Virus record (IMG/VR): IMGVR_UViG_3300025671_000614
Coordinates: 1 to 22,084 of that record
Reading direction: 5' to 3' (one strand)
Source: a virus
DNA length: 22,084 bases
Positions 8,245 through 22,084 of this stretch are shown piece by piece (the first letter of the stretch is position 1; each line of letters begins with the position of its first letter). The notes under the pieces were generated by a model. That model worked only from the letters and a program-made list of their open reading frames with translations. It did not search any database and was not told the DNA's origin. The position numbers and the translations under genes were made by a program.

Positions 8245-10200
8245 TTAATTTAAATAGAAACTTTCACTATAATCTTTAAATGCAGATATCCATTGATTAG
8301 CCTGGCCATCTTCATTACTTCCATCTGCTTTATAACCCTCCTGTACAAGATAGTCTCTAAACCCTCCGACATTATTATTCCAAAAATTTGCATATAATTG
8401 AGGCATTTGATCAATCGGAATTCTTATGTAGTCAGTTGTTTGAATTGTGCGTTCTTCTGTTAATCCGAGCTGAGAGGAACCAACCATAGCAGCCACTTCA
8501 GAGCCAGCTTTACCGAAATCAGATGTTCCCTTTATATATACTGCCGCTGGCGATGCTTTTCCGTTTCTACCAAAACCTTCATCAAAATACAAAATACCAG
8601 TAACCTCATTTAATGTTCTATCATGAATTGTTGTTACATCGTCAATATTGTTTAAAAGAATATCTTTTCTACTAGGAGCACCTCCTTTTTTAAGAGTTCC
8701 TTGTTCAGACCTAAAAGTAACCGCTCCTGCTAAGTTATCCATTTGGTTATATAGAACATTATTTTTTAAAGAATCATTATAATTCGTAGACTCAATTTGC
8801 TGTCCGTTCTGGTTTATAGTTCTGTTGTTTTCAAAACTATCATTAGCTGCATTTCGAGCTTTACCTGCTGCGTCAATAGCCAATATTAAGTCGTTTTGTA
8901 TAGCTGATTTATTGAACTTACCTATCGTACTTGCAGTAGGAGCTCCAGGTCCTAATGAAATTTCAGGAACAGATGTCTGCATTACAGACGCATTAAATAC
9001 AGGAATTCCTGGAGGGGTTGATCCACTTCCATTATTTGACCAATATTCACGATAATTTACATCTAGACCCTGTAAAAATTTATCTCGCATAAAAGCTTTT
9101 GCAAGCTCTCTTTGCTGATCAGTTATGATTTCCTCACCTTGATCATCTAGTTGGATTGTAGTTGGGTCAATAATCAATCCGTTTTTCATTTCTGGAACAA
9201 GAAGTTCTCCCTTGTCATTATAAAATTGTGGGATCTCTTCCTCGTCGCCATTTTCATTTACAAACTTGCGCGTTCCATATATTTTTTTCAAATCCTCTTG
9301 CGTCATCCATTTATGACCAGGATCTCCAATAGCTTTACCGCCAAAATGTTGTGTTATGATTCTAACAACATCTTTGTCATCGGCCACTATTGAATCTAAT
9401 TCGTTTTCGATATTATTTCTTAGCTCAGGAACTTTTCTATTCTGTAGAACAGCTTGGAACATTATTTGACCACCTAAATCTTGAGTTTGATTATAGGGGA
9501 AAGCATAGTTTTGGCCCAATACCTTAAGGAAGTCTTTTACTCTTTCGTTAGGGTCAAACTTCAAATAAACATCGTCTTTACCTCCTGCTATATCAGTTAA
9601 TCGTCTTGTTTGTGTTGCCGTCTGAATCTTGCCTGATTGATCCGCATACTGAAAATTTCTAATCATAGAAGCATCATTGCCAATCATGCCAACTTGAACT
9701 GTATCTTGATACGGTATTCTTTCGCCTTTTTCATTGATTAAATATCGAGGCATTGGGCGATCTTTAATTAAAGTACGTATGTACTTATTTCTCCCATACT
9801 CATCCTGCTTATCTGCAGCTATAGCTTCATCATAAGCTTTAAGTTTTTTCGCTACAAGATCAGAAATATTACCAAGTTGGTTGGCTTGGCTTTGATAACT
9901 TGAGATTAATGCCGTTGCTTCAGATCTACTAATTTTACCTTCTCTGTTTGCCTGATGAGCAGCATAAGCAGCCTCTGTTAAGGATCTTGCTCCGCCAGCA
10001 TAAAGTTTATCAAGCTCTCCAGCCCCTGTTGCTTGAATGGTTGCAGATGCTTTTGCCAATTCAGATAGCTCTTTAGTACGAGCCTCCTGAACTTGCAATT
10101 TAATTTTATTGACATTCATCTGGCCGTCAAGATAGAATTGAGCTATCTTTTCAGCTTTTGTTGCAATAGGTTGCGTATATATTCCCCCTTGATAAGCCAT
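8245..10200 (-). CDS. Internal-virion / ejection-type protein (651 aa), gp15-like position
   Basis: Middle member of three consecutive genes (291, 651, 2399 aa) that I infer encode ejected internal proteins. Residues 1-135 are Ala/Gln/Lys-rich and almost wholly helical, probably coiled coil. They are followed by a charged mixed region (about 140-385), a Gly/Ser/Pro linker (about 388-425, NNGSGSTPPGIP), and a C-terminal part with beta-type and aromatic composition ending DYSESFYLN. There is no signal peptide, membrane segment or recognisable catalytic motif. Its size approaches that of T7 gp15 (747 residues), but I see no specific sequence match to that family. The ATG at 10200 follows the upstream stop by 5 nt, and 14 nt separate its stop from the next ATG, so all three genes are on one transcript. 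The function is drawn from order and composition only. Confidence 0.72.
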   Translation of the reverse strand: MAYQGGIYTQPIATKAEKIAQFYLDGQMNVNKIKLQVQEARTKELSELAKASATIQATGAGELDKLYAGGARSLTEAAYAAHQANREGKISRSEATALISSYQSQANQLGNISDLVAKKLKAYDEAIAADKQDEYGRNKYIRTLIKDRPMPRYLINEKGERIPYQDTVQVGMIGNDASMIRNFQYADQSGKIQTATQTRRLTDIAGGKDDVYLKFDPNERVKDFLKVLGQNYAFPYNQTQDLGGQIMFQAVLQNRKVPELRNNIENELDSIVADDKDVVRIITQHFGGKAIGDPGHKWMTQEDLKKIYGTRKFVNENGDEEEIPQFYNDKGELLVPEMKNGLIIDPTTIQLDDQGEEIITDQQRELAKAFMRDKFLQGLDVNYREYWSNNGSGSTPPGIPVFNASVMQTSVPEISLGPGAPTASTIGKFNKSAIQNDLILAIDAAGKARNAANDSFENNRTINQNGQQIESTNYNDSLKNNVLYNQMDNLAGAVTFRSEQGTLKKGGAPSRKDILLNNIDDVTTIHDRTLNEVTGILYFDEGFGRNGKASPAAVYIKGTSDFGKAGSEVAAMVGSSQLGLTEERTIQTTDYIRIPIDQMPQLYANFWNNNVGGFRDYLVQEGYKADGSNEDGQANQWISAFKDYSESFYLN

Positions 10201-10205
10201 TAGAA

Positions 10206-11081
10206 CTATCTATTTCTATTCATAAAATTAAAATAACCAGGCATAAAACCTCCAGAACTTTTACTGTTAGGAAAAACAACCCCATATTTCGGTGTAGTCG
10301 GCATATTATTTATTATGGAATTATTGATAGCCCCTTGAAGTCCGAATTGTGGATCATACATTGTGTTTCTTGGCTGCAATGAGCTAAAGGTATTGTCTAG
10401 TTGAGCAGAAAATGATTTTGCTGCCAATCTTGAATCAAGAGGTAAATCCTCAACCAATTTAGCTGTATCTGTAACGTCTTTTGCCGTTTTAGTAGCATTT
10501 GCAGCAGCTTCTGCAGCGTCTGCAGCGTCTTTTGCGTTCTTCACAGAACGTGGATCAATTCCTGCTTCAGCTAAAGCTGCTTCTCGCGCAGTGCCTGCAC
10601 TAACAACAGTCATAGCAACATCACTAAGTGCATCGCTTTTCATTTGAGCTCCAGCCATTGCTTGTTGCTTAAGAGATTGTAGTCGCTCTAAATCTCTAGC
10701 CTCTTGCATCTGTCTCATGGTTTGCTCTTCTTGTAGCCTAAGCATGTCTGCTTGAAATTCTTTGTCTAACATAGAAGTTAGTCCCTGTAATTGAGTTTTT
10801 TGAGCTTGCTGATATCCCATTCCTAAAATACCAAGAGCCCCAGCAATATCTCGACCTTGAGCAACATCACTTGTAGTTGCAAGCATTTCAGAAGTTCCAA
10901 TACGCAGCTGTCGTTCCGCTTCTAAAGAAGGCTTAATAGATGCAGCTAAATTAGTTAGATCTTGATATTTAAATTGGTCCAATCCGCTTTTAGCAGATGA
11001 AGCCATTTTTTCCCCTTGAATAAATTGATTTATACTGCTACCTGCACTTGCAATTAATCCTAATGTCGTTAAAAGAGCCAT
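10206..11081 (-). CDS. Internal-virion / ejection-type helical protein (291 aa), gp14-like position
   Basis: A helical protein with a short hydrophobic, small-residue N-terminus (residues 2-20, ALLTTLGLIASAGSSI), a second Gly/Ala-rich hydrophobic patch (79-90), a Gln/Met/Arg/Leu coiled coil (about 100-145), an Ala-rich amphipathic stretch (165-212) and a Gly/Asn/Phe-rich tail ending NFMNRNR. This pattern, with membrane-active helices and a coil in a short protein ahead of two larger core-type proteins, resembles the gp14-like ejection proteins of T7-type podoviruses, which enter the outer membrane during infection. The start at 11081 is an ATG. A 37-nt AT-rich gap upstream holds a promoter-like -7 element, and only 5 nt separate it from the 651-aa gene downstream. 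The role is inferred; an internal scaffold or chaperone is an alternative. Confidence 0.72.
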   Translation of the reverse strand: MALLTTLGLIASAGSSINQFIQGEKMASSAKSGLDQFKYQDLTNLAASIKPSLEAERQLRIGTSEMLATTSDVAQGRDIAGALGILGMGYQQAQKTQLQGLTSMLDKEFQADMLRLQEEQTMRQMQEARDLERLQSLKQQAMAGAQMKSDALSDVAMTVVSAGTAREAALAEAGIDPRSVKNAKDAADAAEAAANATKTAKDVTDTAKLVEDLPLDSRLAAKSFSAQLDNTFSSLQPRNTMYDPQFGLQGAINNSIINNMPTTPKYGVVFPNSKSSGGFMPGYFNFMNRNR

Positions 11082-11104
11082 TATTCTTGAGCTTTATAAT
11101 TATA

Positions 11105-11112
11105 CAAATATA
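11105..11112 (-). promoter_or_regulatory. Candidate internal promoter (-7 TATATTTG) before ejection-type genes
   Basis: On the minus strand TATATTTG matches the Bacteroidota -7 consensus TAnnTTTG, 23 nt before the ATG of the 291-aa gene. No exact TTG lies at the usual distance upstream. The nearest partial match is TTT at 11136-11134, giving a 21-nt spacer. It sits in a 37-nt AT-rich gap, one of only five gaps over 20 nt in the operon, and could boost expression of the last three genes. Confidence 0.35.
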
Positions 11113-11118
11113 CGAATT

Positions 11119-11877
11119 TTACATGTAGCTCTTAAACACCTCAGAGTTGACGGCGTATAGCTCTACAAAGTTTGTTGAATCATTTTGCAACAAGATGCTA
11201 GAGTAATATCCACGCAATCCATATGACTCAATTTGTGGGTCTTTAACTACAAAACAAAAATCATTTACTGAAGGTGCATTTATTATCGAAACAACGTTTA
11301 TGCTTGATCCAGATATTGTGTTAATCACCCCTACTTGAAGTGGGGTTCCTGAATTATCAAACCATAATTCATCACCTTCTTGTATTTGATTTGGAATCGC
11401 ATTGCCAAACACTATTTCAGTAGGCCCACCGCCACCGGTAACAGGCCCAATGCCTTGAATTGAAAGCTTGTTGTAATTGTTTTTATCACTAGCTTCGCGT
11501 CTAATATAGGCATACTTCATACCTTCTTTATCCTCAAACTTATAGTTCCCAGCAGATCCAATTTGACCAGACTCTAACTCAGAGTTAAGTGTTGCATACC
11601 ACTGAGTACTATTGGTCTCTAGTCCTAATGCCTTAAATAGCTTGACATCCGAAGGACCTTCATTAGCAGAAAATTTTATACGACACCCATCTATGCTTCC
11701 ATAAAAATTTGTTCGCTCTTCATTAGCATCATGCTCGTACAAATTACCGTTCTTAAAGGTATAAAATTTTGTCCCAAGTCTTTGTGTCCACTCAGGAATA
11801 TATGTATGAAATGAAGTCCACGCATTGTAAACCTCATCCCATGTTATTGTTCTTTGATCTGTTGATAATTGCGCCAT
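11119..11877 (-). CDS. Tail muzzle-associated module as a separate protein (252 aa)
   Basis: The N-terminal 100 residues carry a pattern I know from the C-terminal part of crAss-like and marine flavophage muzzle/stabilisation proteins: WTSFHTYIPEW (20-30), FYTFKNGNLYEHD (38-50), NFYG (57-60), then a DVKLFKALGLE-type segment (77-87) and KEGMKYAYIRRE. The remainder (about 130-252) is beta-rich and Gly/Ser/Asn-rich, with one glycine run (GGGGP). Here the module is its own gene, with an ATG at 11877, 3 nt after the stop of the 1389-aa tail gene. I infer that it assembles with that protein at the tail tip or muzzle. No signal peptide or catalytic motif is visible. The module identification is from memory of family patterns. 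Confidence 0.75.
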   Translation of the reverse strand: MAQLSTDQRTITWDEVYNAWTSFHTYIPEWTQRLGTKFYTFKNGNLYEHDANEERTNFYGSIDGCRIKFSANEGPSDVKLFKALGLETNSTQWYATLNSELESGQIGSAGNYKFEDKEGMKYAYIRREASDKNNYNKLSIQGIGPVTGGGGPTEIVFGNAIPNQIQEGDELWFDNSGTPLQVGVINTISGSSINVVSIINAPSVNDFCFVVKDPQIESYGLRGYYSSILLQNDSTNFVELYAVNSEVFKSYM

Positions 11878-11880
11878 ATC

Positions 11881-14800
11881 TTATCCTACGTAATCCCAAA
11901 TTAAAAATAAATTCTCACTAGTATTAGCCCTGTTGAATGTAAAGTTTCCAGAAACCAATGTACCGTTACCACTAGTAGTTACCGTTTGACTCACATAAGT
12001 TGCATTGTTTCTAATGTCAGCTGGAGTAAGTGTTGTTGAGCTACTAACTAAATAACCTAGTCTATGTGTGCCTTGTAAAAATTCTCCTGTATGAATATCT
12101 GAATTGACAAAAGATTGAATCACAACGACATCGCCATTATCTGGAACAATATCTGTACCCATGTCTCCGCTGACTGTTTCAAATCGCGTAACCCCATCAA
12201 AATCAAATATATCCAGCGTTGAATTTAATGCGCCATCAGCGTTAATTTTATATCTGTTTATCGTGGTTAATTCAGCGTACTCAGGAGAGTTCATTACAAG
12301 TAATGTAACATCCATTGTCTCAGGAATTGGACAGTCATGTGTTAGAGTTACAGTTGGATTATCGCCAACAGCTTGAATAGTAACAGAGGCTATTCCATCA
12401 GCATCTAAGTCTCCTTGACTTACTGCAAAAGAAATAGTTCCGCTGCCTGTAAGACCGTCATTAGTAAATAATGTTCCATTATGAACAATTGAAATATTAA
12501 TTTCAGCAGAAGTTACATAATCAATATTTACAGTGCCAGGATAATTAGCAATTTCAAAGTCATAAGTATATGTTCCACTTACGTCTCGCGTAAGTACTGT
12601 GCCGCATTCAATATTACTTGTTGGAATAATTTGTCCTTCATCAGTCATCGTCAATACGTATTGATGATTTCTTGGATCAAATCCTCCTAGGTTAAACTTG
12701 TTTTTATTTCCAATTAAAAACTCTTTAAAAAATGACTTCATACCTGCGTATGAAATTGGAGTAATGCCTTCGTTGTTGAGACTCAATACTGCTCCCCTAT
12801 TAGCGTCAGTAAAATACACACGGCCCTCATAAGTAGCAAAACTTTCTGGGTTTGTGGATATACCATATTCTCCAGAGTACGGAACATCTTGCCCAAGCAC
12901 TTGCTCTATTTGAGTCAAACTACCAGACCCATCAGGACTAGTTAAAATGTTTTTCTCATATAACACCTTAGACACTCGGTCTTCTTGGAAAACAATTAAA
13001 TCTCGTTCTCTAGCAAATATCTTTTGAATACCTCCATATTTAGAATCTAGATTCTTAGATATACCTCGTCCAGTATTAAATTCATTAAGGCTATTATATC
13101 CAGTATCCTCGCTAAAAGAACCACTATAGATAAGCCTGTTTTTATCTGCTCGACTAGCATACCCATCAATCAAGGCAATATTGGGGCGAGTTTTTAAAGT
13201 AATATATGGCTTGAATCTGCCATCTAAAATTCTTGATGCTTCAACACCATTGCCAAAAGAATAACAATTTCCAGCAGATAAAGAAACAATTGCTGGGTCT
13301 GAAGAATTTTGATTCTGTAAATTTCCTTGGTGATATCCAGCTTCAATCGTAAATGTTTGTTCTGTCTCGTAATAAATATCTGTGTTTTCTTCAATCGGCT
13401 CAGTTTCAAAAACTACTAAGTCCTGAAACAATGCCGTTCTTATTCTAGCACGAAATGTTGCTCTATCAGATCCATTAATAAATCTATCAGTTGTAACCTT
13501 ACATCTCCACCTATCACCGACCTTATAAATAATAATCGCAAATTCAAACGACGCCCTAATTGGTATATCGTATCTTCTTGCATTTGGATCGCCAGACTCT
13601 GTAATTGTTGTGTAAACATAATTTGTCTGAGCATCTAAAAATTTTGCAAAACAATGATCATTTCCGGTTGTAACGTAATCTGATTGAGCATCATATTCTT
13701 CATTGAAAACATCTGTAAGAGTATCATAAACAATACCGCCAACAGCCTCTTGTTCTGTATGCAAAAAATCAAGGGTTATTTTAGCGCCACGGGGTATTGT
13801 TAAATCAGTATAAGTGCCTGTAGATTCACTATATGATTGATAAAATCCAGAAGTATTGCTTGCTGGCAAAACAACAGTAGTGTATCCGTTCTGACCAGAT
13901 CCTATATAACTTCCACGATAATAATCAACATTTCTATCCGTATCAAAAACCATCGCAAAGTTCAAAGGACGAATTTTCATGTATGTCCCAGCCTTTTCAA
14001 TAATGGCATTGCCATCATTATCCTCATTCCCTTCAATCCATCCTTCTCCTGAGGTGTTTTGGTCTGCTCCTGTTTTTTGACTAATTTCTAAAACTTTGCA
14101 TCGAACAAGATCTGTAAGAGGCCCGCTATTATCGCGCTTTACAATTAATGTCTGGCCTTCTTCAACTTTTTTAGCATTTGCTCCTTGCATTAAAACGTAA
14201 ACATCTAAACCATCTTGATAATACTCCGTAGCGTATATGGTATAATATTCTTGCTTACTGCTTTTTATAAAGAACTTGTATCTGTCAGCCCAATAAGGAG
14301 GCAAATTATTTACTGTAATCTTAAAAGAATTTATATTTACAGATTGTCTTATTGGAACAAATACCTCGGATTCGCTATCTGGCACGTTTTCTAAAGGAAG
14401 CAATACACTGCTGTATCTACCAAATCGATCCAAATAAACAATTCCAACCTCATAAGTTGTGTTCGATTTTAGAGACAACTGAACAGCTTTTTTCCTATAG
14501 GTAATTATTGAAGGATCTTGCCAATAAAATGCTTCATTAGCAGTCCCCGTTGTTGTTGTGTATTCAATAAAAGGATTTGCCAGAGTAAAAGCCGTTGAAG
14601 TTGGAGGGGTACTTAATGATAAAGTTGGTCCAGAAAAAGTTTTTGATACCTCATCAGGGTGAGGTACTGTATTAACGTTTAACTGAAAGCTACTTTGAAG
14701 CTGCTCTAAAGCCGCAACAAACTCGTCAGAAGCACACAAATCAATTACTGAAGAATAGTTTTGTAGTAATATTACTGTGGCTTGAATATAAGCTGCTCCA

Positions 14801-16050
14801 CCAAAATAATCTGGAGGACCAACTACTTGATTAGAAAATAAATTCAATCCAAACCTAATGCTGCTACCTTTAATTAAATCTAATCCAGACAAATTAAAAG
14901 TTACAAGCTGCCCCTGGCCAGTTGTAATAGTCCCAGCAATATCAGTTCCTTCCTGAGTTTCTGATACTAGCTCAACGTTGTAATCAATTTTAATGTTTTG
15001 AGCATCACCCTCAGTACGTACTAAATCATACTGACTAGTCGTATTACCAAAAACAATACGATCTTCAATAATATCTTGGGCCTTTGCAGTTAAGGGAACA
15101 TCGTCAAATATCCGGAGTACCTCATCCGCAGGCAGCGTCTTAAATATTTTTTTATTAAAAAACTCATAGGTCTGAACCGAGTTGTCAGGTATATTGCTTT
15201 CATCTTTATTAATGTTATCGATAACATATATTGTTGGCTCATTAGCTACTTTAAACAAAAGCTGAACATCTGTAACTCTTTTATCTCCAGCATTATACGA
15301 TAATCTATATCCATTATATAAACTCTCCATGCCAAGGTTTTCCATGGACGCATAGTCCAAATCAAATTCCCCTGGAACAAATTGGTAATTGGTAAATGCA
15401 GAAGGCGCAGAATACTCGTTATCTAAATATTTGTAGCGATATGCAAATGCAAAAAAGTTTTCTTTTAAACTGTTTTCTGCATCAGTAGCTGTGTTGAAAG
15501 GAGTTACACTTGGAGCAAAACGTGGAGGTTTTTTATACAAAGAAATATCGTCCTCGTTAAATCCATTAACACCATAGGTCTTAGCTCTCTTAATGTTCAC
15601 CATTCTTGGCGGATTAATGCCATCAGTAAATAACAAAAGTTTATCTTTTCTAGAGGTGTTGTAAAGAATATTTACCCCAGTAATTTTATACTTAGCGTTA
15701 AAATTTAAAACTTGCAGATTTCCAGATCTTTCGTCCGCTAAAATAGTTGTGGTTAATTGCTTTAAAGCATCGTATTCAAAGACATAAGAATACCCAAGAC
15801 TATTAACAATAAACCAATATATTTTTTCCTCGGCCTCATCAGCTACAGAGCCAATACATATCGGAGTGTTTGTTACTGGGATATTAGTTAGCTTGACATT
15901 TCCCTTTTCATTTTCTATTGCGCCAGCATCAGAGCCACTAGTGTTGAGCACACGAATATTATAACCTTCAATGAATTCGCCTTTTTGAATAAGACGCTCA
16001 TCGACGTCTTTATTCATCTTGCCCGTCGAGAATACGTTTTTAATCTTCAT
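11881..16050 (-). CDS. Muzzle / tail stabilisation-type protein (1389 aa)
   Basis: The start (residues 8-33, with GKMNKDVDERL and Gly-Glu-Phe then Asn-Ile-Arg-Val) is the typical opening of large tail stabilisation or muzzle proteins in crAss-like and other podoviruses (P22 gp10 / crAss muzzle type), in which the protein closes or extends the tail below the ring proteins. The bulk is beta-rich, as expected for propeller or sandwich domains. A conserved-looking FNLGGFDPRNHQYVLTM lies near residues 1117-1133. It is followed by a beta-sandwich-like segment bracketed by Cys1149 and Cys1240, then a final domain of about 140 residues ending LFLIWDYVG, as in adhesive or receptor-binding modules. ATG at 16050; only 1 nt separates it from the ring-type gene before it. 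I infer a surface-exposed tail component with possible carbohydrate binding. It could alternatively be described as a tail-hub or tail-spike scaffold. Confidence 0.82.
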   Translation of the reverse strand: MKIKNVFSTGKMNKDVDERLIQKGEFIEGYNIRVLNTSGSDAGAIENEKGNVKLTNIPVTNTPICIGSVADEAEEKIYWFIVNSLGYSYVFEYDALKQLTTTILADERSGNLQVLNFNAKYKITGVNILYNTSRKDKLLLFTDGINPPRMVNIKRAKTYGVNGFNEDDISLYKKPPRFAPSVTPFNTATDAENSLKENFFAFAYRYKYLDNEYSAPSAFTNYQFVPGEFDLDYASMENLGMESLYNGYRLSYNAGDKRVTDVQLLFKVANEPTIYVIDNINKDESNIPDNSVQTYEFFNKKIFKTLPADEVLRIFDDVPLTAKAQDIIEDRIVFGNTTSQYDLVRTEGDAQNIKIDYNVELVSETQEGTDIAGTITTGQGQLVTFNLSGLDLIKGSSIRFGLNLFSNQVVGPPDYFGGAAYIQATVILLQNYSSVIDLCASDEFVAALEQLQSSFQLNVNTVPHPDEVSKTFSGPTLSLSTPPTSTAFTLANPFIEYTTTTGTANEAFYWQDPSIITYRKKAVQLSLKSNTTYEVGIVYLDRFGRYSSVLLPLENVPDSESEVFVPIRQSVNINSFKITVNNLPPYWADRYKFFIKSSKQEYYTIYATEYYQDGLDVYVLMQGANAKKVEEGQTLIVKRDNSGPLTDLVRCKVLEISQKTGADQNTSGEGWIEGNEDNDGNAIIEKAGTYMKIRPLNFAMVFDTDRNVDYYRGSYIGSGQNGYTTVVLPASNTSGFYQSYSESTGTYTDLTIPRGAKITLDFLHTEQEAVGGIVYDTLTDVFNEEYDAQSDYVTTGNDHCFAKFLDAQTNYVYTTITESGDPNARRYDIPIRASFEFAIIIYKVGDRWRCKVTTDRFINGSDRATFRARIRTALFQDLVVFETEPIEENTDIYYETEQTFTIEAGYHQGNLQNQNSSDPAIVSLSAGNCYSFGNGVEASRILDGRFKPYITLKTRPNIALIDGYASRADKNRLIYSGSFSEDTGYNSLNEFNTGRGISKNLDSKYGGIQKIFARERDLIVFQEDRVSKVLYEKNILTSPDGSGSLTQIEQVLGQDVPYSGEYGISTNPESFATYEGRVYFTDANRGAVLSLNNEGITPISYAGMKSFFKEFLIGNKNKFNLGGFDPRNHQYVLTMTDEGQIIPTSNIECGTVLTRDVSGTYTYDFEIANYPGTVNIDYVTSAEINISIVHNGTLFTNDGLTGSGTISFAVSQGDLDADGIASVTIQAVGDNPTVTLTHDCPIPETMDVTLLVMNSPEYAELTTINRYKINADGALNSTLDIFDFDGVTRFETVSGDMGTDIVPDNGDVVVIQSFVNSDIHTGEFLQGTHRLGYLVSSSTTLTPADIRNNATYVSQTVTTSGNGTLVSGNFTFNRANTSENLFLIWDYVG

Positions 16051-16051
16051 A

Positions 16052-16942
16052 CTACTTTATCCACTTATCTCGTCCTCGTAGAATCTGAGTAAGTTCGCCT
16101 AGTTTAATAGAGTTCAATCTAATCTTTGTGTTGCGTAATGATGCTGAAGCTTGCTTCTGAGCTCTACGCACAATGTATTCTTGTACACCAAACTTTTGTT
16201 TTAATACGCTAGACACAAGATAGTCGTACATGTAATTCTCTGCTAATTTATGAATCTTTATATCTCCGTCAGACAAAGCGTAAAGACCGTCAGACACATA
16301 TTCAATAATAATTTGCTTACCAGATAAATCTGAACTAAACAAAATAAACCCACGGTCTTTATCTAAACGATAGCTTCCATTGTGATTAGCAGTTGCAGTG
16401 TCTAAACCAAATCGCTTGCCAAGTAAATTTGTATCAGGCTCAACAACAGTTCTTCCAGAATGTTGATTTCTCCAATTAGTTTCGATTACAGGGGTTCCAG
16501 TTAGCGCATTGTCATTGTTATCCATAAGGATATTTTTCTGCGCTGTATTGTCCTGTAAATAACTAATAGGTGTAGATGTATTGAAGTTCTCTGGAATCAT
16601 TCTAGCCGTACCATCTTCTCCAACATAAGCTACTTTAACTGCACTAACAAAATCGTGTGGTAAATGCATCTTTAAATTGTCAGGTAATTCAGCTTCGAAT
16701 CCACGAATCTCTCGCAATGCATCATAATGTAATTCCTGCAAACCACGCTTGGCATGAAAGACAATTTCATTTCTATCAGCTTTATTAATGACCTTATCAT
16801 CACCAACATAAGTGAGCATAAAGTTATTTATGATGTCTTTCAGCAAGACATACTGATACGTTCCCCAGTTTTCGTCTGTAGGATTATTACCATTGTTTTG
16901 GTAGTATTCCCTTTGATCTATATATGTTCCAATTATTGGCAT
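16052..16942 (-). CDS. Head-to-tail ring / connector-type structural protein (296 aa)
   Basis: Residues 44-118 (YVGDDKVINKADRNEIVFHAKRG followed by ELHYDAL, then LPHDFVSAVKVAYVGEDG) match the pattern of ring or tail-tubular structural proteins in crAss-like and related podoviruses. In these, a helical bundle carries a beta segment that packs against the neighbouring subunit. The C-terminal 60 residues are helical and basic (KLAENYMYDYLVSSVL to the end). No membrane or signal segment is seen. The start is an ATG at 16942, 3 nt after the preceding stop, and the stop at 16052 is one base before the muzzle-type gene start. I infer that it forms one of the rings between the portal and the muzzle. 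The exact ring level cannot be told from sequence alone. Confidence 0.78.
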   Translation of the reverse strand: MPIIGTYIDQREYYQNNGNNPTDENWGTYQYVLLKDIINNFMLTYVGDDKVINKADRNEIVFHAKRGLQELHYDALREIRGFEAELPDNLKMHLPHDFVSAVKVAYVGEDGTARMIPENFNTSTPISYLQDNTAQKNILMDNNDNALTGTPVIETNWRNQHSGRTVVEPDTNLLGKRFGLDTATANHNGSYRLDKDRGFILFSSDLSGKQIIIEYVSDGLYALSDGDIKIHKLAENYMYDYLVSSVLKQKFGVQEYIVRRAQKQASASLRNTKIRLNSIKLGELTQILRGRDKWIK

Positions 16943-16945
16943 AGG

Positions 16946-17686
16946 TTATGAATTTTCTTTGGCGTATTCTATCTGCTCTTGCTGCGCAGTTAATTGTACG
17001 ACTTCTGTTTCTCGTATACTTAGTCCAGCATACTTACATATCTTGATGATTAACTCTGTCTCATCCTCCTCAGATATTTCAAAATCTGTGCTAGTGGCAG
17101 AGTTGTAAACAGGATCCCCTCCTACAGAAACATACCCCCAGTGCGGATCGACAGGCTTACGAATGTAATTAGCCTGTACGGTTTGCGATATACTTAAAGG
17201 TCGTACGTATATATTATTGCCTTTTCGTACGTATATAGGGTAGGTCAGTGTTGGCGTGGTGTAGTTGCTGTTCACAATCATATCAAACTTGTGTGGCGCA
17301 ACTGGCTGAATTACAGTTCCTCCAGATTGAATTACGTCTGTGCCAAATCCTCCTTGATAGGTAAGATTAATTAATTTATATAAGTCAGCAGGAAGCAAGA
17401 AGTAATCGCGCTCTTCCGGTGGAGGAACATTATCGACATACGTCAACGCAACATTTTCATAGAAAATATCAATTTTATTCTGTATATGCTGGACAGTATC
17501 GCCATAGTTCAGAGCTTTTTTGCGAACATTTTGCATTGCCATAGCTTTTGAGTAGTCAGAAAAATATGACTCAAAAATTTCTAGCTGGGCTAATTTTGCA
17601 AAATAATCAAATTCTGATGGAGATACATATCCTCTGTTGTCCTTGTTAAGCAAAAACATAACAGTATTTCTGACGCTATTAATCAT
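16946..17686 (-). CDS. Head-to-tail ring / adaptor-type structural protein (246 aa)
   Basis: The N-terminal pattern (residues 14-42: NKDNRGYVSPSEFDYFAKL and then EIFESYF) and the C-terminal helix with SIRETEVVQ (about 223-231) resemble a structural protein found next to the ring protein in crAss-like and marine Bacteroidota podoviruses. The middle is beta-rich, with a YVRKGNNIYVRP hairpin-like part. I infer an adaptor or ring component at the portal-tail junction. The ATG at 17686 lies just downstream of a strong terminator and a promoter-like element, making this the first gene of the tail segment. Spacing to the next gene is 3 nt. Assignment as ring protein rather than head-completion protein is uncertain. 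Confidence 0.76.
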   Translation of the reverse strand: MINSVRNTVMFLLNKDNRGYVSPSEFDYFAKLAQLEIFESYFSDYSKAMAMQNVRKKALNYGDTVQHIQNKIDIFYENVALTYVDNVPPPEERDYFLLPADLYKLINLTYQGGFGTDVIQSGGTVIQPVAPHKFDMIVNSNYTTPTLTYPIYVRKGNNIYVRPLSISQTVQANYIRKPVDPHWGYVSVGGDPVYNSATSTDFEISEEDETELIIKICKYAGLSIRETEVVQLTAQQEQIEYAKENS

Positions 17687-17701
17687 AGGATATATTTTCT
17701 A

Positions 17702-17709
17702 CAAAAGTA
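17702..17709 (-). promoter_or_regulatory. Candidate promoter (-7 TACTTTTG) for tail genes after terminator
   Basis: On the minus strand TACTTTTG matches TAnnTTTG and lies directly after the T run of the terminator at 17711-17741. A TTTG at 17729-17726, inside the terminator hairpin, could serve as the -33 element with a 16-nt spacer, slightly short of the usual 17-23. The predicted start would leave an untranslated leader of about ten nucleotides before the ATG at 17686. Terminator then promoter is a sensible arrangement for restarting transcription at the tail genes. Confidence 0.4.
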
Positions 17710-17710
17710 C

Positions 17711-17741
17711 AAAAAAAAGAGGCCGCAAATTGCGACCCCTC
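17711..17741 (-). terminator. Intrinsic terminator after the 257-aa gene, minus strand
   Basis: On the minus strand GAGGGGTCGC (17741-17732) pairs with GCGGCCTCTT (17726-17717) over 10 bp, three of them G-U wobbles, around a 5-nt loop, and an eight-T run (17718-17711) overlaps the end of the stem and follows it. This is a strong rho-independent terminator, 26 nt after the stop of the 257-aa gene. It should end most capsid-segment transcripts. Confidence 0.87.
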
Positions 17742-17766
17742 CTCCTTTCACGGTAGAACTGTAAAT

Positions 17767-18540
17767 CTATAGTTTATTGGTAATGTTCTGTAAGACATCT
17801 AATCCTTCATCAGTTTTGAAGAACGAGGCTAATGCACTATATACATTTTCACCGAATGGGGCAATCATTACCTTTTGGCGTTTGTCAGTAGCCCAAGTAA
17901 CGGTACGATTGTCGTCTTTAATGTGTAGTATTCCCATCTCTACTGCACGTACAGCTAAGTTACGTAGTTTTAGATTTTCATCGTTTAACAAATCCATAAA
18001 CTCACCTGGGTTATTTCTTGCCCAAATAATCATGTCACGACGCAGTTCTGATGAGGTCATTTTTGAAATGTTTCCTTTAAGCGCAACACGAGCAACAGCC
18101 TCTAGGTCGTTGATATCTAAATCTTTAGCAGCAACCTGCGCTTCAAGGGTAGAAAATATAGTTTCAACCTCGTCGCTTGCTTGTTTCTCCTTGTCAAACT
18201 CCTCAAATTTCTTGTTGAAATCGGGATGAATCATAAGAAACTTCTGTAAATTAACATTCCACGCTGGAACAATAAGCGTTCCATTTTGAAATACAATAGG
18301 CTCCATTGTTACAACACCATCTTGCTCATCTACAAATGGAGATAATTGATTTGTAGCATATCTTAATGCTCTGTTCAAAGAGCCATCAAAATATGTTAAT
18401 GGCTTTCTAGAGGTGTGTTTTACTGAAATCATTGTGCGTATTGGGGTCTTGTTTCCCTTAAGAATAAATACGCGATCTTTTTGCTCTAGCTTTGGTAATA
18501 CTGTATTGTACCCATAAGCTTTGGTAGTTTTTGTAGACAT
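17767..18540 (-). CDS. Conserved virion-associated protein next to capsid gene, function unknown (257 aa)
   Basis: I recognise the general type: proteins beside the MCP in marine phages with RVFILKGNKTPIRTMI (23-38), a DEQDGVV segment (71-77), then IHPDFNKKFEEFDKEK (104-119). No function is known to me. The N-terminal half is beta-rich. A charged helix (108-135) leads to a C-terminal part that looks like a small SAP/helix-extended-loop-helix segment (MTSSELRRDMIIWARNNP, 161-178) and a winged-helix-like end (AVRAVEMGILHIKDDNRTV then ATDKRQKVMI, about 196-226). Both are often nucleic-acid-binding folds, but this is inference. The ATG at 18540 follows one strong terminator and its stop is followed by a second, so its expression should fall below that of the MCP. 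Capsid cementing, DNA contact inside the head, or regulation of assembly are all possible. Confidence 0.75.
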   Translation of the reverse strand: MSTKTTKAYGYNTVLPKLEQKDRVFILKGNKTPIRTMISVKHTSRKPLTYFDGSLNRALRYATNQLSPFVDEQDGVVTMEPIVFQNGTLIVPAWNVNLQKFLMIHPDFNKKFEEFDKEKQASDEVETIFSTLEAQVAAKDLDINDLEAVARVALKGNISKMTSSELRRDMIIWARNNPGEFMDLLNDENLKLRNLAVRAVEMGILHIKDDNRTVTWATDKRQKVMIAPFGENVYSALASFFKTDEGLDVLQNITNKL

Positions 18541-18563
18541 TTTATTTAAAATTTAATTTTATT

Positions 18564-18603
18564 AAAAAAAAGGATTGGGGGGCGACAAGCGCCCCCTTTT
18601 CCC
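18564..18603 (-). terminator. Intrinsic terminator directly after the MCP gene, minus strand
   Basis: On the minus strand a GC-perfect stem GGGGGCG (18596-18590) / CGCCCCC (18584-18578) with a 5-nt loop is extended, across a 3x3 internal loop, by GGGA/TCCT (18603-18600 / 18574-18571) and ends in a run of eight T (18571-18564). It begins 11 nt after the MCP stop. It should cut most transcripts after the capsid gene, with readthrough to the 257-aa gene. Confidence 0.87.
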
Positions 18604-18614
18604 TAACATAGTTA

Positions 18615-20003
18615 TTATTGGAACAACATAAAGTTGTTTACTCCCATTGTACAAAGAGCACGCTCAGACAAGAAGTGAACTTCCATCACATCTTTATCAG
18701 TTGTAGCAGCTCCTCCAGCAGAACCAACAACCCAAGACTTATACTTGCGGTCTTCAGTAGGAGAAACACGATAACGAACGTGTAAGAACGGACGTTTTGC
18801 GTTTTCACCCAATACTTGGTCATATACTGTAGTAGTACCAGCAGGAACTAAGATTCCATCAACCCCTCCAATGTTACCACGAGTAGTAGCATCGTTAAGG
18901 TATTTCCAGTCAGACTTATAGAAGTCATATCCGATACGGAATCCAGTGAATCCAAGGTTAAGAGCCATGTCCTCGTCATTGTCAAACAAACCGTAAGAGC
19001 TATCAGAAGCTGATGCGTTGTTTTGTGAAGCGAGTACTCGGTCAATTTCAAAGCTAGTTGCACGGTTTACAAACATAACGTTTTCTTGAATAGCTCCTTC
19101 TTTGTCAAGAACTTTAGCCATAGCTTCAAGATCGTCACGGTCAGTAAAGATACCAGTAGCAACGTTACCATTGTTTTCTACATCGTAGAAAAGACCTTTG
19201 GTTCCTTTGTATCCAGCAGTAGCGGCAGAAGAATTAACAGCAGCAGGCTCTCCTTCAACCATTGCAGTCTCAAGATAGTCTTCAAAACGTAAACGAGTTT
19301 CATGCTCAGACTTCAAATACCAAAGATATCCAGAAGCACCATTCTCAGTAGTTACTTCAACCCATCCAACGTGAGCCATTTCAGAACCAGATACTTCGTA
19401 ACGGTCTTTAATGATGATTGGATTGTTTTCTTTAGATTCAAAATCAGCTTCAAGAGAACCTTTCATTCCTTCAGATCCTTTTTTAAACTCAGAACCATAA
19501 ACAAAAATAGTTATATCGTCAGCGGCTGTGAAGTTTGCGGCCCCACCGCTAGTAACTTCTACAAGGCTAAAAGTAGCAAAAGTAACAACATCAATAGAGT
19601 CTGTAGCTACGCTCGTAATAAGACACTTAGCTTGCTTGCCATCAGAATCACGAGAAATGATAATGGTTTGGTTTGCGCGGAAATTGTGTCCAGTCACAGC
19701 AATAGTATTTCCATCAGTAATGCTACCAGCTGCTTGAATGTGTAAACGTCCTTGCTCACTCCACTTGATAAGGTCTGAGCTAGAAGGTAATTCAGCTCCT
19801 ACCATACGTAAGAAAGAAGCAATTGAACGATTTCCATAACGCTCAAATTCTTTTTCGTACAAATCTGGTAAGTACTGTTGTGCAAAAGTGTAATCTGCAT
19901 TAGAAAGGTAGTTGGTGTTAGCCAATCCCTTTACTGGTGCAGGAGTTAAAGAGGTAGATCCGCCTACGGTTCCAGCTCCTCCAAGGGTGATAGTTTGTGC
20001 CAT
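18615..20003 (-). CDS. Major capsid protein (MCP), HK97-fold, crAss-like type
   Basis: A 462-residue protein forming the icosahedral head shell. It follows the portal and scaffold-type genes. Its C-terminal end (residues 440-461, MEVHFLSERALCTMGVNNFMLF) resembles the C-terminus of crAss-like and related Bacteroidota phage capsid proteins. The N-terminal arm (1-80) holds a Gly/Thr-rich start and an FAQQYLPDLYEKEFERYGN helix. Residues about 90-170 look like an inserted small beta domain. The central region (AMVEGEPAA, 247-255; FTDRDDLEAMAK, 286-297; FVNRATSFEIDR, 311-322) fits the P/A-domain core. Among its 19 arginines I count only CGN codons (16 CGT) and no AGA or AGG, a sign of very high expression. 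ATG at 20003, 24 nt of AT-rich gap after the scaffold stop. A strong terminator follows. No N-terminal prohead cleavage site can be named. Confidence 0.9.
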   Translation of the reverse strand: MAQTITLGGAGTVGGSTSLTPAPVKGLANTNYLSNADYTFAQQYLPDLYEKEFERYGNRSIASFLRMVGAELPSSSDLIKWSEQGRLHIQAAGSITDGNTIAVTGHNFRANQTIIISRDSDGKQAKCLITSVATDSIDVVTFATFSLVEVTSGGAANFTAADDITIFVYGSEFKKGSEGMKGSLEADFESKENNPIIIKDRYEVSGSEMAHVGWVEVTTENGASGYLWYLKSEHETRLRFEDYLETAMVEGEPAAVNSSAATAGYKGTKGLFYDVENNGNVATGIFTDRDDLEAMAKVLDKEGAIQENVMFVNRATSFEIDRVLASQNNASASDSSYGLFDNDEDMALNLGFTGFRIGYDFYKSDWKYLNDATTRGNIGGVDGILVPAGTTTVYDQVLGENAKRPFLHVRYRVSPTEDRKYKSWVVGSAGGAATTDKDVMEVHFLSERALCTMGVNNFMLFQ

Positions 20004-20027
20004 CTTAATAAGGTTTTAAAATTTTTT

Positions 20028-21170
20028 TTATCGTTTTTTAATTTTCAAACCAGACCCATAATCATTGTCGTTCATAACTCTGAATTTTGGACCAGGCTTC
20101 GATGAATCAACATTAGCACGAACATTCATATTTATATTTTTACCATCCTTAACCACTTCGTTTACCGCGTCGGCTTTGCCCTGCTCATAAAAGAACTTAG
20201 CGTATGCCTGAGGGTTCATTGCCATGTTTAAGGCGGTATGATACTGTTTCGCATCTTTTAAGTAGCCATTGTCATCGACAAAGCGTGAAATAAAATTGTT
20301 AAGGTCTGATTGAGCCTTGACAACCTCGTTCACATCTTTTGGCTTATAACGCAGCGACTTTTCACCAACATTAAATTCGAAACCTTCGAACTCATCAGTA
20401 AAAAGCTCAGACGTTTTTTGCTCAAAAGTTTTTCTTTGACTTTGAACAACTTCTTGCTCCCTAGTTGATTCATCATTATATTGCTTGTAAAACTCAATAG
20501 CTTTTCTTGCATCCTCAGGAAGAGCCTCGCTACTTGACTCAAGTGGGGCTTTGTACTTATCCTGCATCTGCTTGAAATACTCCTTTGCTTTATGCAATTC
20601 TTGTTTTTTCTCAAAAGCTTTTCGCTTGGCATCTTTTTCAGTATCAACATTTTCGTCAACACTAAACCTGTCTTCAATTATATAATTAATATCAGACTCA
20701 TCCAGCTCTGGATTTGATTGTCGATAATATTCACGCAATAAAACTGATTCTTCATACTCGCTCACGTCTTCGTTTGCTTTAATGAAGTCTTTGAGACCGC
20801 GTTTAGTCTCTTGCTTATATTGCAAATACTTCTCGACTTCCTCCGGAAGCTCTTGAGGGGTATTCTTATTTGAAAGAACGTTGTCTAAATCATCTACACT
20901 GATTTTATATTTATCAGTCAAGAATTGATTTATAATTTCTTCTCTGCTTGGAGCTACAGTCTTGGGGTCTTTTTCCTCTACGTCCTGCGATTCTGCTTGG
21001 GCTTGTTGCTCTTCTTTTTGGCCTTGTTCGCCATCGAGTAACACCCCTTCATCAGTTTCTTGCTCTTTAGTGCCATCTTCTATATTTTCTTGTTGTTCAG
21101 TACTTTTTTCTGCCGCTGGCGGCTGTGATAAGTCGACTTTAAAATCAACCTCTTCGTTTACATTACTCAT
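20028..21170 (-). CDS. Scaffold-type head assembly protein (380 aa)
   Basis: A 380-residue protein between portal and MCP. Residues 1-75 are highly acidic and Gln-rich and look disordered (for example TEQQENIEDGTKEQE). The middle (about 75-340) is helical and charged with long coiled-coil stretches (KRKAFEKKQELHKAKEYFK is one). The C-terminus is basic and Gly-rich (SKPGPKFRVMNDNDYGSG then LKIKKR, 358-380), a typical arrangement for a scaffolding protein whose C-terminal end contacts the capsid protein. No protease motif is seen, so a fused maturation protease is not supported. ATG at 21170; a 44-nt gap with a promoter-like element separates it from the portal stop. A minor internal virion protein remains an alternative. 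Confidence 0.8.
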   Translation of the reverse strand: MSNVNEEVDFKVDLSQPPAAEKSTEQQENIEDGTKEQETDEGVLLDGEQGQKEEQQAQAESQDVEEKDPKTVAPSREEIINQFLTDKYKISVDDLDNVLSNKNTPQELPEEVEKYLQYKQETKRGLKDFIKANEDVSEYEESVLLREYYRQSNPELDESDINYIIEDRFSVDENVDTEKDAKRKAFEKKQELHKAKEYFKQMQDKYKAPLESSSEALPEDARKAIEFYKQYNDESTREQEVVQSQRKTFEQKTSELFTDEFEGFEFNVGEKSLRYKPKDVNEVVKAQSDLNNFISRFVDDNGYLKDAKQYHTALNMAMNPQAYAKFFYEQGKADAVNEVVKDGKNINMNVRANVDSSKPGPKFRVMNDNDYGSGLKIKKR

Positions 21171-21196
21171 AATGAATTAGATTTAAATTATTATTG

Positions 21197-21204
21197 CAAA
21201 ATTA
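21197..21204 (-). promoter_or_regulatory. Candidate -7 element (TAATTTTG) before scaffold gene
   Basis: On the minus strand TAATTTTG fits TAnnTTTG, 26 nt before the ATG of the scaffold-type gene, in the 44-nt gap after the portal stop. No TTG lies at the usual -33 distance, so it is weaker than the elements at 17702 and 11105. A promoter here would separate scaffold and MCP expression from the low-copy portal. Confidence 0.25.
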
Positions 21205-21214
21205 TGTAAAAATA

Positions 21215-22084
21215 TTACATGTTTCCTTGACCCATCATAGCCTGTATTTTTGCCATAATATCTTCCTGATTATTTTGTTGTTCAAAATCAGTAGGAGGTA
21301 AATTTTCTTTACGCTGGGCAATCATTTTACTTTGCTGAGTCGCTTGTTTTTTTGTTCTTTCGTCTTTGCGGTCTTCTTTGTATTTTTCTTTAGACTGGCC
21401 TACTTGACCCTCAATTTCTTTTAAGCGCATTTCAAATTCGTACTTCATCTTCATCAGCTCCATGTCAATTTCTTTTTTGGCTTGCATTTTTTGCATCTCT
21501 AGTTGAGCACGCATTTGCTCCAATTGAGATTCAGACTCATTCTTCATCTGCTGTTCTTGCATTCTAGATTGAGAAGCCGATTGTGCTGATTGAGCATTAG
21601 CCTGAGTTTGCATGTCAATAGTCTTTTGCTGTTTTTGCAACTCTAGCTTTTCACGTTTTTGTTTACGAACTTTTAATAAACTATTAGCTAAATTCAAATT
21701 ATTTACACTGCGTATGTCAATTGCATCTTCCAATCCAATTTGACCAGCCTGAATAGATTGTTGAATATTTTGCTCAAGCATTTGTTTTTGTTCCTCGTCG
21801 GGCTCAATCTCAATGAAAATGCCAAAATCATGAAGATGCAATTGCATAATATCTCTAACAGCATCTAAGTTGTTTCGGCCAATCATTTTTGCAAAATCCG
21901 TTGAAAAATCTGAATATTGTAAAATATCAGATATTCTATATGATAATGCCTCAGCTAATTGCTCAGTAATATAAATACCAGACAATACAATGTGTCTTGT
22001 TGCTGTATTGCTGTTTAAAGCAGCTAACTTTTGAATACCAACCAATGCATATTGATCAGGAGTACTGGCATCCCTGGCTTCATT
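21215..22084 (-). CDS. Portal protein, C-terminal part (5' end beyond window)
   Basis: The reading frame stays open to the right edge, so the visible 289 residues are the C-terminal part of a longer protein; the internal TTG at 22045 is not a real start. It begins NEARDASTPDQYALVGIQKL and continues through a helical segment with MQLHLHDFGIFIEIEPDEEQ and GLEDAIDIRSVNNLNLANSL, a pattern typical of crAss-like and marine podovirus portal proteins near the C-terminal barrel. A very long Gln/Lys/Glu/Met coiled coil (about visible residues 140-260) and a short disordered tail rich in Pro and Gln follow. The portal is the dodecameric DNA entry/exit ring at one capsid vertex. The terminase gene expected upstream would lie outside the window. 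Identity rests on position before scaffold and MCP and on the recalled motif pattern. Confidence 0.82.
   Translation of the reverse strand, partial: NEARDASTPDQYALVGIQKLAALNSNTATRHIVLSGIYITEQLAEALSYRISDILQYSDFSTDFAKMIGRNNLDAVRDIMQLHLHDFGIFIEIEPDEEQKQMLEQNIQQSIQAGQIGLEDAIDIRSVNNLNLANSLLKVRKQKREKLELQKQQKTIDMQTQANAQSAQSASQSRMQEQQMKNESESQLEQMRAQLEMQKMQAKKEIDMELMKMKYEFEMRLKEIEGQVGQSKEKYKEDRKDERTKKQATQQSKMIAQRKENLPPTDFEQQNNQEDIMAKIQAMMGQGNM

Follow-up and report, generated by a model that had tools for sequence, protein, structure and literature searches.

How might a phage whose virion genes lie together on one strand make much capsid protein and yet set the level of its tail proteins separately? 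The question is raised by a locus in which a single gene for a 257-aa protein, placed between the major capsid protein (MCP) gene and the first tail gene, has a hairpin on either side. The virus record that holds the locus is 22,084 bases long; all of it was analysed and is referred to here as the window. Its source is an uncultured marine phage, kin of the crAss-like phages infecting Bacteroidota, and its late (virion) module is encoded on the minus strand. Late genes of crAss-like phages are thought to be probably transcribed by the host RNA polymerase, according to the accessible text of two publications (PMC10136315, PMC8375218). From the sequence patterns described below, we consider it likely that the late module consists of punctuated units read by a host-type RNA polymerase, delimited by a promoter P1, a leaky terminator T1, a terminator T2 joined to a promoter P2, and a promoter P3.

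The module follows the order P1, putative scaffold gene, MCP gene, T1, 257-aa gene, T2/P2, ring proteins, muzzle, P3 and cargo-position genes (Table 1). The match of the 246-aa protein to SU10_adaptor is weak and under the cut-off, and the 1389-aa protein carries the crassvirus muzzle domain crAss_MUZ (49.5 bits against a cut-off of 27). Beyond the 1389-aa gene, the minus strand encodes proteins of 252, 291, 651 and 2400 aa. With a muzzle domain above the cut-off, several virion families and the order portal-MCP-ring, the module is Crassvirales-like, a term used here for module content and order, since the records of the named relatives put these outside Crassvirales. The named relatives are phages of Flavobacteriia, namely Maribacter phage Panino, the Flavobacterium elemo phages, and the Cellulophaga phages phi38:1, Calle and phi18:3; a further relative is the environmental record ctfjg026.

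Table 1. Genes and candidate signals of the late module, with positions in the window
Feature	Position	Strand	Basis or remark
Portal gene, 3' part	21215-22045	-	
P1, TAATTTTG, -7-like, 5' of the scaffold-position gene	21197..21204	-	conserved
380-aa protein, scaffold position	20028..21170	-	flanked by the portal and MCP genes; lacks a strong family match
Major capsid protein (MCP), 462 aa	18615..20003	-	phrog_13704, E 1.2e-105; order as in annotated relatives
T1, hairpin and T8 3' of the MCP stop	18564..18603	-	fold, T-run, conservation
A/T-rich leader of the 257-aa gene	18541..18563	-	conserved in alignment; without TAHHTTTG
257-aa gene, gp33-family protein	17767..18540	-	profile-profile match to phicrAss001 gp33 family
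T2, hairpin and T8 3' of the 257-aa gene	17711..17747	-	fold, T-run, conservation
P2, TACTTTTG, -7 element	17702..17709	-	74/74 sequences; predicted start near 17697
246-aa protein of ring/adaptor type; its gene opens the tail unit	16946..17686	-	phrog_14543, E 5.3e-38
296-aa virion protein and 1389-aa muzzle-type protein	11881..16942	-	phrog_13977, phrog_14478
P3, TATATTTG, 5' of the 291-aa gene	11105..11112	-	11/11 longer contigs with that gene

A preliminary description of this DNA had read the region as two terminators flanking one gene, with a promoter next to them, and this anatomy is right: it is kept in every clade relative that has the sequence. T1 pairs GGGGGCG with CGCCCCC above a lower GGG/TCC stem and ends in T8 at 18571-18564, while the T8 of T2 lies at 17718-17711. 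Both thus display the G+C-rich hairpin and subsequent T-run by which an intrinsic (Rho-independent) terminator is recognised in sequence. Their folding z-scores are -2.6 (T1) and -3.8 (T2), with 1 of 200 shuffles folding equally well in each case. Runs of at least seven T occur only twice on the minus (coding) strand of the 22-kb window, each adjoining a hairpin, and these hairpins (-18.5 and -15.9 kcal/mol) are the strongest terminator-like sites in the window, both of them intergenic. Sixty first-order Markov copies of the minus strand yielded in total a single site combining T>=7 with a hairpin of <= -15 kcal/mol, and no copy contained two. A generic terminator scan of positions 10000-22084 detected 7 sites against 6.5 +- 3.0 expected; there is no overall excess, so the count alone is no proof. 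Rfam matched nothing in the window. Directly 5' of the T2 hairpin, a CCGTGAAAGG stretch (17753-17742, minus strand) is conserved in many, although not all, relatives.

The clade set comprises 80 viral loci that encode a relative of the 257-aa protein. T1, as a hairpin and T-run between the MCP stop and this gene, is present in 80/80 loci, 77 detected by script and three (L036-L038) by eye; for the latter, L036 was inspected, and L037 and L038 have an identical upstream gap in the merged listing. The T-run measures 5-10 nt in all 80 loci. The hairpin sequences of T1 vary widely among loci, in contrast to the T-run and the A/T-rich leader downstream, which stay constant. T2 and P2 are present in all 74 sequences (73 loci and the window) that extend at least 100 nt past the gene, a limit that omits L015, L031, L032, L060, L077, L079 and L080. 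In five loci (L028, L029, L030, L033 and L034) T2 is weak, at -7.3 kcal/mol by restricted fold. Among 16 T2 hairpins of the same geometry, pairing is retained in 99.2% of cells, with two-sided change at 2 of 8 pairs; this count covers one geometry and omits others (L027, L028, L036, L039, the group around L053, L058, L061, L074, L075), and the covariation lends the predicted hairpin modest support.

The -7 element of the putative promoter P2 lies one base past the T-run of T2. Its sequence, TACTTTTG, fits the Bacteroidota sigma-A -7 element TAHHTTTG, described for Flavobacterium johnsoniae in the accessible text of PMC6847099, where many starts fall 4 or 5 nt downstream, A/T-rich stretches have their centres at -18 and -28, and there is a weak -33 element. 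P2 agrees with this consensus in that its H positions are free of G and the T-run covers -18. Across 28 distinct junctions drawn from the 74, the invariant columns are T-15 to T-20, TA[CT]TTTTG, T-4 and A+1 to A+3, and the distance from the -7 element to the next ATG is 14-15 nt in 27 of them. For the -33 element (TTTG/TTG), the window has TTTG at 16 nt upstream; TTG lies at 16-17 nt in 16 of the 28 junctions and at 15 nt in five, and is not in range in seven. The T-stretch at -15 to -20 of P2 is the T-tract of T2, so that one element seems to serve as both terminator and promoter. On the minus strand of the window, TAnnTTTG occurs at chance level (15 listed against 13.6 +- 3.4 expected), and TACTTTTG is credible because of its location and its conservation in 74/74 sequences. 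The leader between P2 and the ATG, AAATATATCCT (17701-17687, minus strand), is near-invariant among relatives and is without the A at -3 favoured in Flavobacterium.

The same motif lies ahead of other genes as well. In the elemoE genome TAHHTTTG is enriched in intergenic gaps (16 against 3.9 +- 2.0 expected), and 12 of these 16 copies precede a same-strand gene start by no more than 75 nt; the late half of phi38:1 displays a weaker excess (7 against 2.0 +- 1.3). At the position of P1, 61 of 65 sequences carry TAHHTTTG 29-35 nt upstream of the scaffold-position gene. Two of the four exceptions show TAGCTTTG, and in two the gene is truncated. The counts cover 65 of 81 sequences, since either MCP or the scaffold-position gene could not be located in the other 16. 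The gap between scaffold-position and MCP genes harbors TAHHTTTG in none of the 65. For P3, 12 chosen records were inspected, of which 11 (L165-L175) have the 291-aa gene; no terminator precedes TATATTTG. A generic sigma-70 scan gave 35 sites against 40.1 expected.

Similar boundaries appear in other families. The order MCP, hairpin, middle gene, hairpin, TAHHTTTG, ring gene is shared by ctfjg026, elemoE, phi38:1 and Calle_1. In Panino (L082 6751-8041), five small genes separate the second hairpin from the promoter-like site of the ring gene, and in phi18:3 (L086 6784-8771) the same interval holds six genes on the opposite strand. With such an insert, a terminator followed by a separate start of the tail genes is the natural reading for phi18:3. 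The interval between T2 and the ring promoter is likely an insertion hotspot at a transcription boundary. The independent start of the tail genes put forward in the preliminary description thus finds strong support in the sequence, both from the 74/74 conservation of P2 and from the genes that Panino and phi18:3 carry between T2 and the tail promoter.

These features point to the following course of transcription. Host-type RNA polymerase would start at P1 and produce a message for the scaffold-position protein and MCP, most of which T1, as an intrinsic terminator, would stop just past the MCP stop codon. The fraction reading through T1 would carry the 257-aa gene, whose A/T-rich leader has no recognisable promoter, and would be ended by T2. 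P2, which has its T-tract in common with T2, would then restart transcription ~11 nt ahead of the ring-protein gene, and P3 would later initiate the cargo-position genes. The predicted outcome is much MCP, little 257-aa protein and a tail level that is set separately. From the arrangement and conservation of the signals we infer that these elements terminate or initiate transcription, that T1 is leaky, and what the protein ratios would be.

The 257-aa protein itself is related to the gp33 family of phicrAss001 by profile comparison (94.2%, E 1.1e-7) and by its place directly 3' of the MCP gene, as gp33 is the gene directly after MCP in phicrAss001; the family alignment was redone without L111, which has a stop codon, and also without L116, L120 and L140. 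Eight other annotated crass-like records hold a gene in the same slot. The records of phi18:3 and phi14:2 give MCP and the tail proteins next to it a structural label from MS/MS, but give none to the scaffold-position and gp33-family proteins. A term search of the phicrAss001 virion-structure paper (PMC10172136) did not return gp33. The missing virion label suggests that the gp33-family protein probably either assists assembly or occurs in low copy number, and expression below that of MCP would fit this. The earlier proposal of less 257-aa protein is accordingly plausible as a prediction, considering that TAHHTTTG is absent 3' of T1 and that the homologues in two phages are unlabelled. The predicted fold (mean pLDDT 73, pTM 0.44) has no PDB match at E <= 0.001, and the named BFVD matches at this threshold are uncharacterised phage proteins, including those of Gundel_1, phi14:2 and crAss-like viruses, so no function can be deduced from them. 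Some gut crassviruses (L157, L159, L161, L162) have 'RecA protein' as the label of the gene in the gp33 slot, and three of them (L157, L159, L162) have 'Regulatory protein RecX' at the scaffold position; these labels look like doubtful transfers.

The read-through step has to be weighed against the idea that the A/T-rich leader contains a promoter of a kind not yet recognised; this would make the 257-aa gene an independent unit. The leader is conserved, and TATCTTTG, a TAHHTTTG, is located 3' of T1 at the equivalent place in elemoE and ctfjg026, where the middle gene hence seems promoter-equipped and read-through is not universal. However, the last 75 nt 5' of the 257-aa gene contain TAHHTTTG in no clade sequence, an absence from which the gene probably relies on read-through of T1. 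The leader also resembles the A/T-rich leader 3' of P1 and may serve translation only. We therefore hold a separate promoter in the leader to be unlikely. A similarly low probability is given to the possibility that T1 is chiefly a hairpin for 3'-end protection or processing, which would stabilise the MCP message, with termination secondary and the protein ratio arising from message stability. Evidence for such a role comes from the gaps after MCP in crAss-like phages: z <= -2 is reached by 50 of 58 distinct gaps, whereas the final 75 nt of MCP reach it in 3 of 58 cases, and a T-run of at least 5 at the foot of the hairpin is found, by a crude measure, in only 20. The screen started from 63 gp33-family loci, with phicrAss001 (L095) omitted and nine loci without an MCP end; merging of identical gaps left 45, removal of L116 and L145 (short upstream frame) left 43, and 15 annotated records brought the number to 58. 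A strict test for hairpin plus T-run was passed by 22 of the 45 merged gaps. The strong hairpins of phi14:2 and cr127_1 lack a T-tract, FpV4 has no clear hairpin and a promoter-like site in the gap, and ProJPt-Bp1 and cr4_1 have weak z. As hairpins of the wider group are often without a T-tract, their main role may be protection of the MCP message, with termination possibly a special case of the clade. Within the clade, in contrast, the T1 hairpin is followed in every locus by a T-run of 5-10 nt, which is the hallmark of intrinsic terminators. Protection and termination are compatible roles for T1.

The remaining explanations concern the origin of the signals. Hairpins, T-runs and TAnnTTTG could arise by chance from A/T-rich gaps, as might be suspected from the generic scan without a total excess and from the chance frequency of TAnnTTTG on the strand. 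The position, strength and conservation of the elements speak against this, and their recurrence in 74/74 sequences refutes it in practice, leaving it a negligible probability. The terminators on both sides of the 257-aa gene could also mark a moron, a mobile gene with its own signals. Yet the slot between MCP and ring genes is filled by a similar-sized gene in records of Pervagoviridae, Pachyviridae, Elemovirus and Crassvirales, and together with the gp33-family profile link this indicates a core gene; the real insertions, in Panino and phi18:3, are located between T2 and P2. The moron reading, which we regard as very improbable, was dropped on the ground that every family examined has the gene as part of its core. 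Punctuated transcription with read-through at T1 thus remains our preferred reading for the clade. The stronger wording of the preliminary description, a clear case of stoichiometry set by transcription, exceeds the evidence, as the post-MCP hairpin of other crAss-like phages often has no T-tract, which also fits mRNA stabilisation, and as the promoter-like site 3' of T1 in elemoE and ctfjg026 weakens it further.

Comparable arrangements exist in well-studied phages. The single terminator of T7 for the phage polymerase lies directly 3' of gene 10, and genes 11 and 12 are expressed via read-through, as given in the accessible text of PMC5592923. T7 and the window share a terminator, in the window a predicted one, just 3' of the major capsid gene and a scaffold gene, or a gene at that position, just 5' of it. 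The virion genes 11 and 12 of T7 are reached by read-through; the position of the 257-aa gene fits this, and its read-through is predicted. T7, however, uses its own RNA polymerase and promoters, whereas the promoter-like sites of the window match host sigma-A, and the accessible account of T7 describes no further terminator joined to a promoter beyond the next gene (PMC5592923). PhiX174 has stepwise terminators at its capsid genes and an overlapping promoter-terminator element (PMC9135205, accessible text), and resembles the window in the alternation of genes and terminators, in the falling transcript levels of structural genes, which for the window are a prediction, and in this overlap. It differs in being a small, unrelated ssDNA phage with other genes and another host. 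With these precedents the principle is already known; new, as far as the literature was searched, are the conserved version seen in crAss-like phages and the fusion of T2 with P2. A search on crAss-like phages, major capsid protein and intrinsic terminator found no paper, subscription papers being mostly outside reach.

Closer relatives display parts of the same arrangement. In phicrAss001 (gp31-gp34, NC_049977), MCP is likewise followed by a strong hairpin, then TTTTTCTTTTTT, no TAHHTTTG, and the gp33-family gene, and TATCTTTG lies ahead of the gp31 gene. In contrast to the window, the gp33-gp34 gap measures 4 nt, T2/P2 is missing and the ring-protein gene is directly next. Phi38:1 and the elemo phages have the same order as the window, with hairpin and T-run 3' of both MCP and the next gene and TAHHTTTG before the ring gene; they differ in a middle gene only 25-37% identical to the 257-aa protein and, for elemoE, in the extra motif 3' of T1.

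The sequence evidence leads to a specific map in which a capsid unit is followed by a gene reached by read-through and then by separate units for tail and cargo. This punctuated map is at odds with the view of the late structural and lysis genes as 'a single cohesive transcriptional unit', the phrase used in the accessible part of a review (PMC10136315). If true, it would explain how different amounts of capsid and tail proteins are obtained from one host polymerase, and would provide compact natural terminator-promoter parts for Bacteroidota. In a wider form, which we see as evenly poised between right and wrong, the post-capsid hairpin would be a standing regulatory feature of gut and marine crAss-like phages that sets MCP against the gp33-family protein; the flavophage branch would add a dual-use T-tract, in which the U-tract of T2 is the -18 T-stretch of P2, and the late module would comprise several tuned units. 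Since stranded RNA-seq of phicrAss001 already exists, as stated in the accessible text of PMC8375218, the step between MCP and gp33 can be checked on present data.

A second terminator-promoter-like junction is located on the plus strand at 86-138 of the window. It comprises a CCCTCAGC/GCTGAGGG hairpin, T6 and TAAATTTG at 125-132, which ends a few bases 5' of a 152-aa plus-strand frame.
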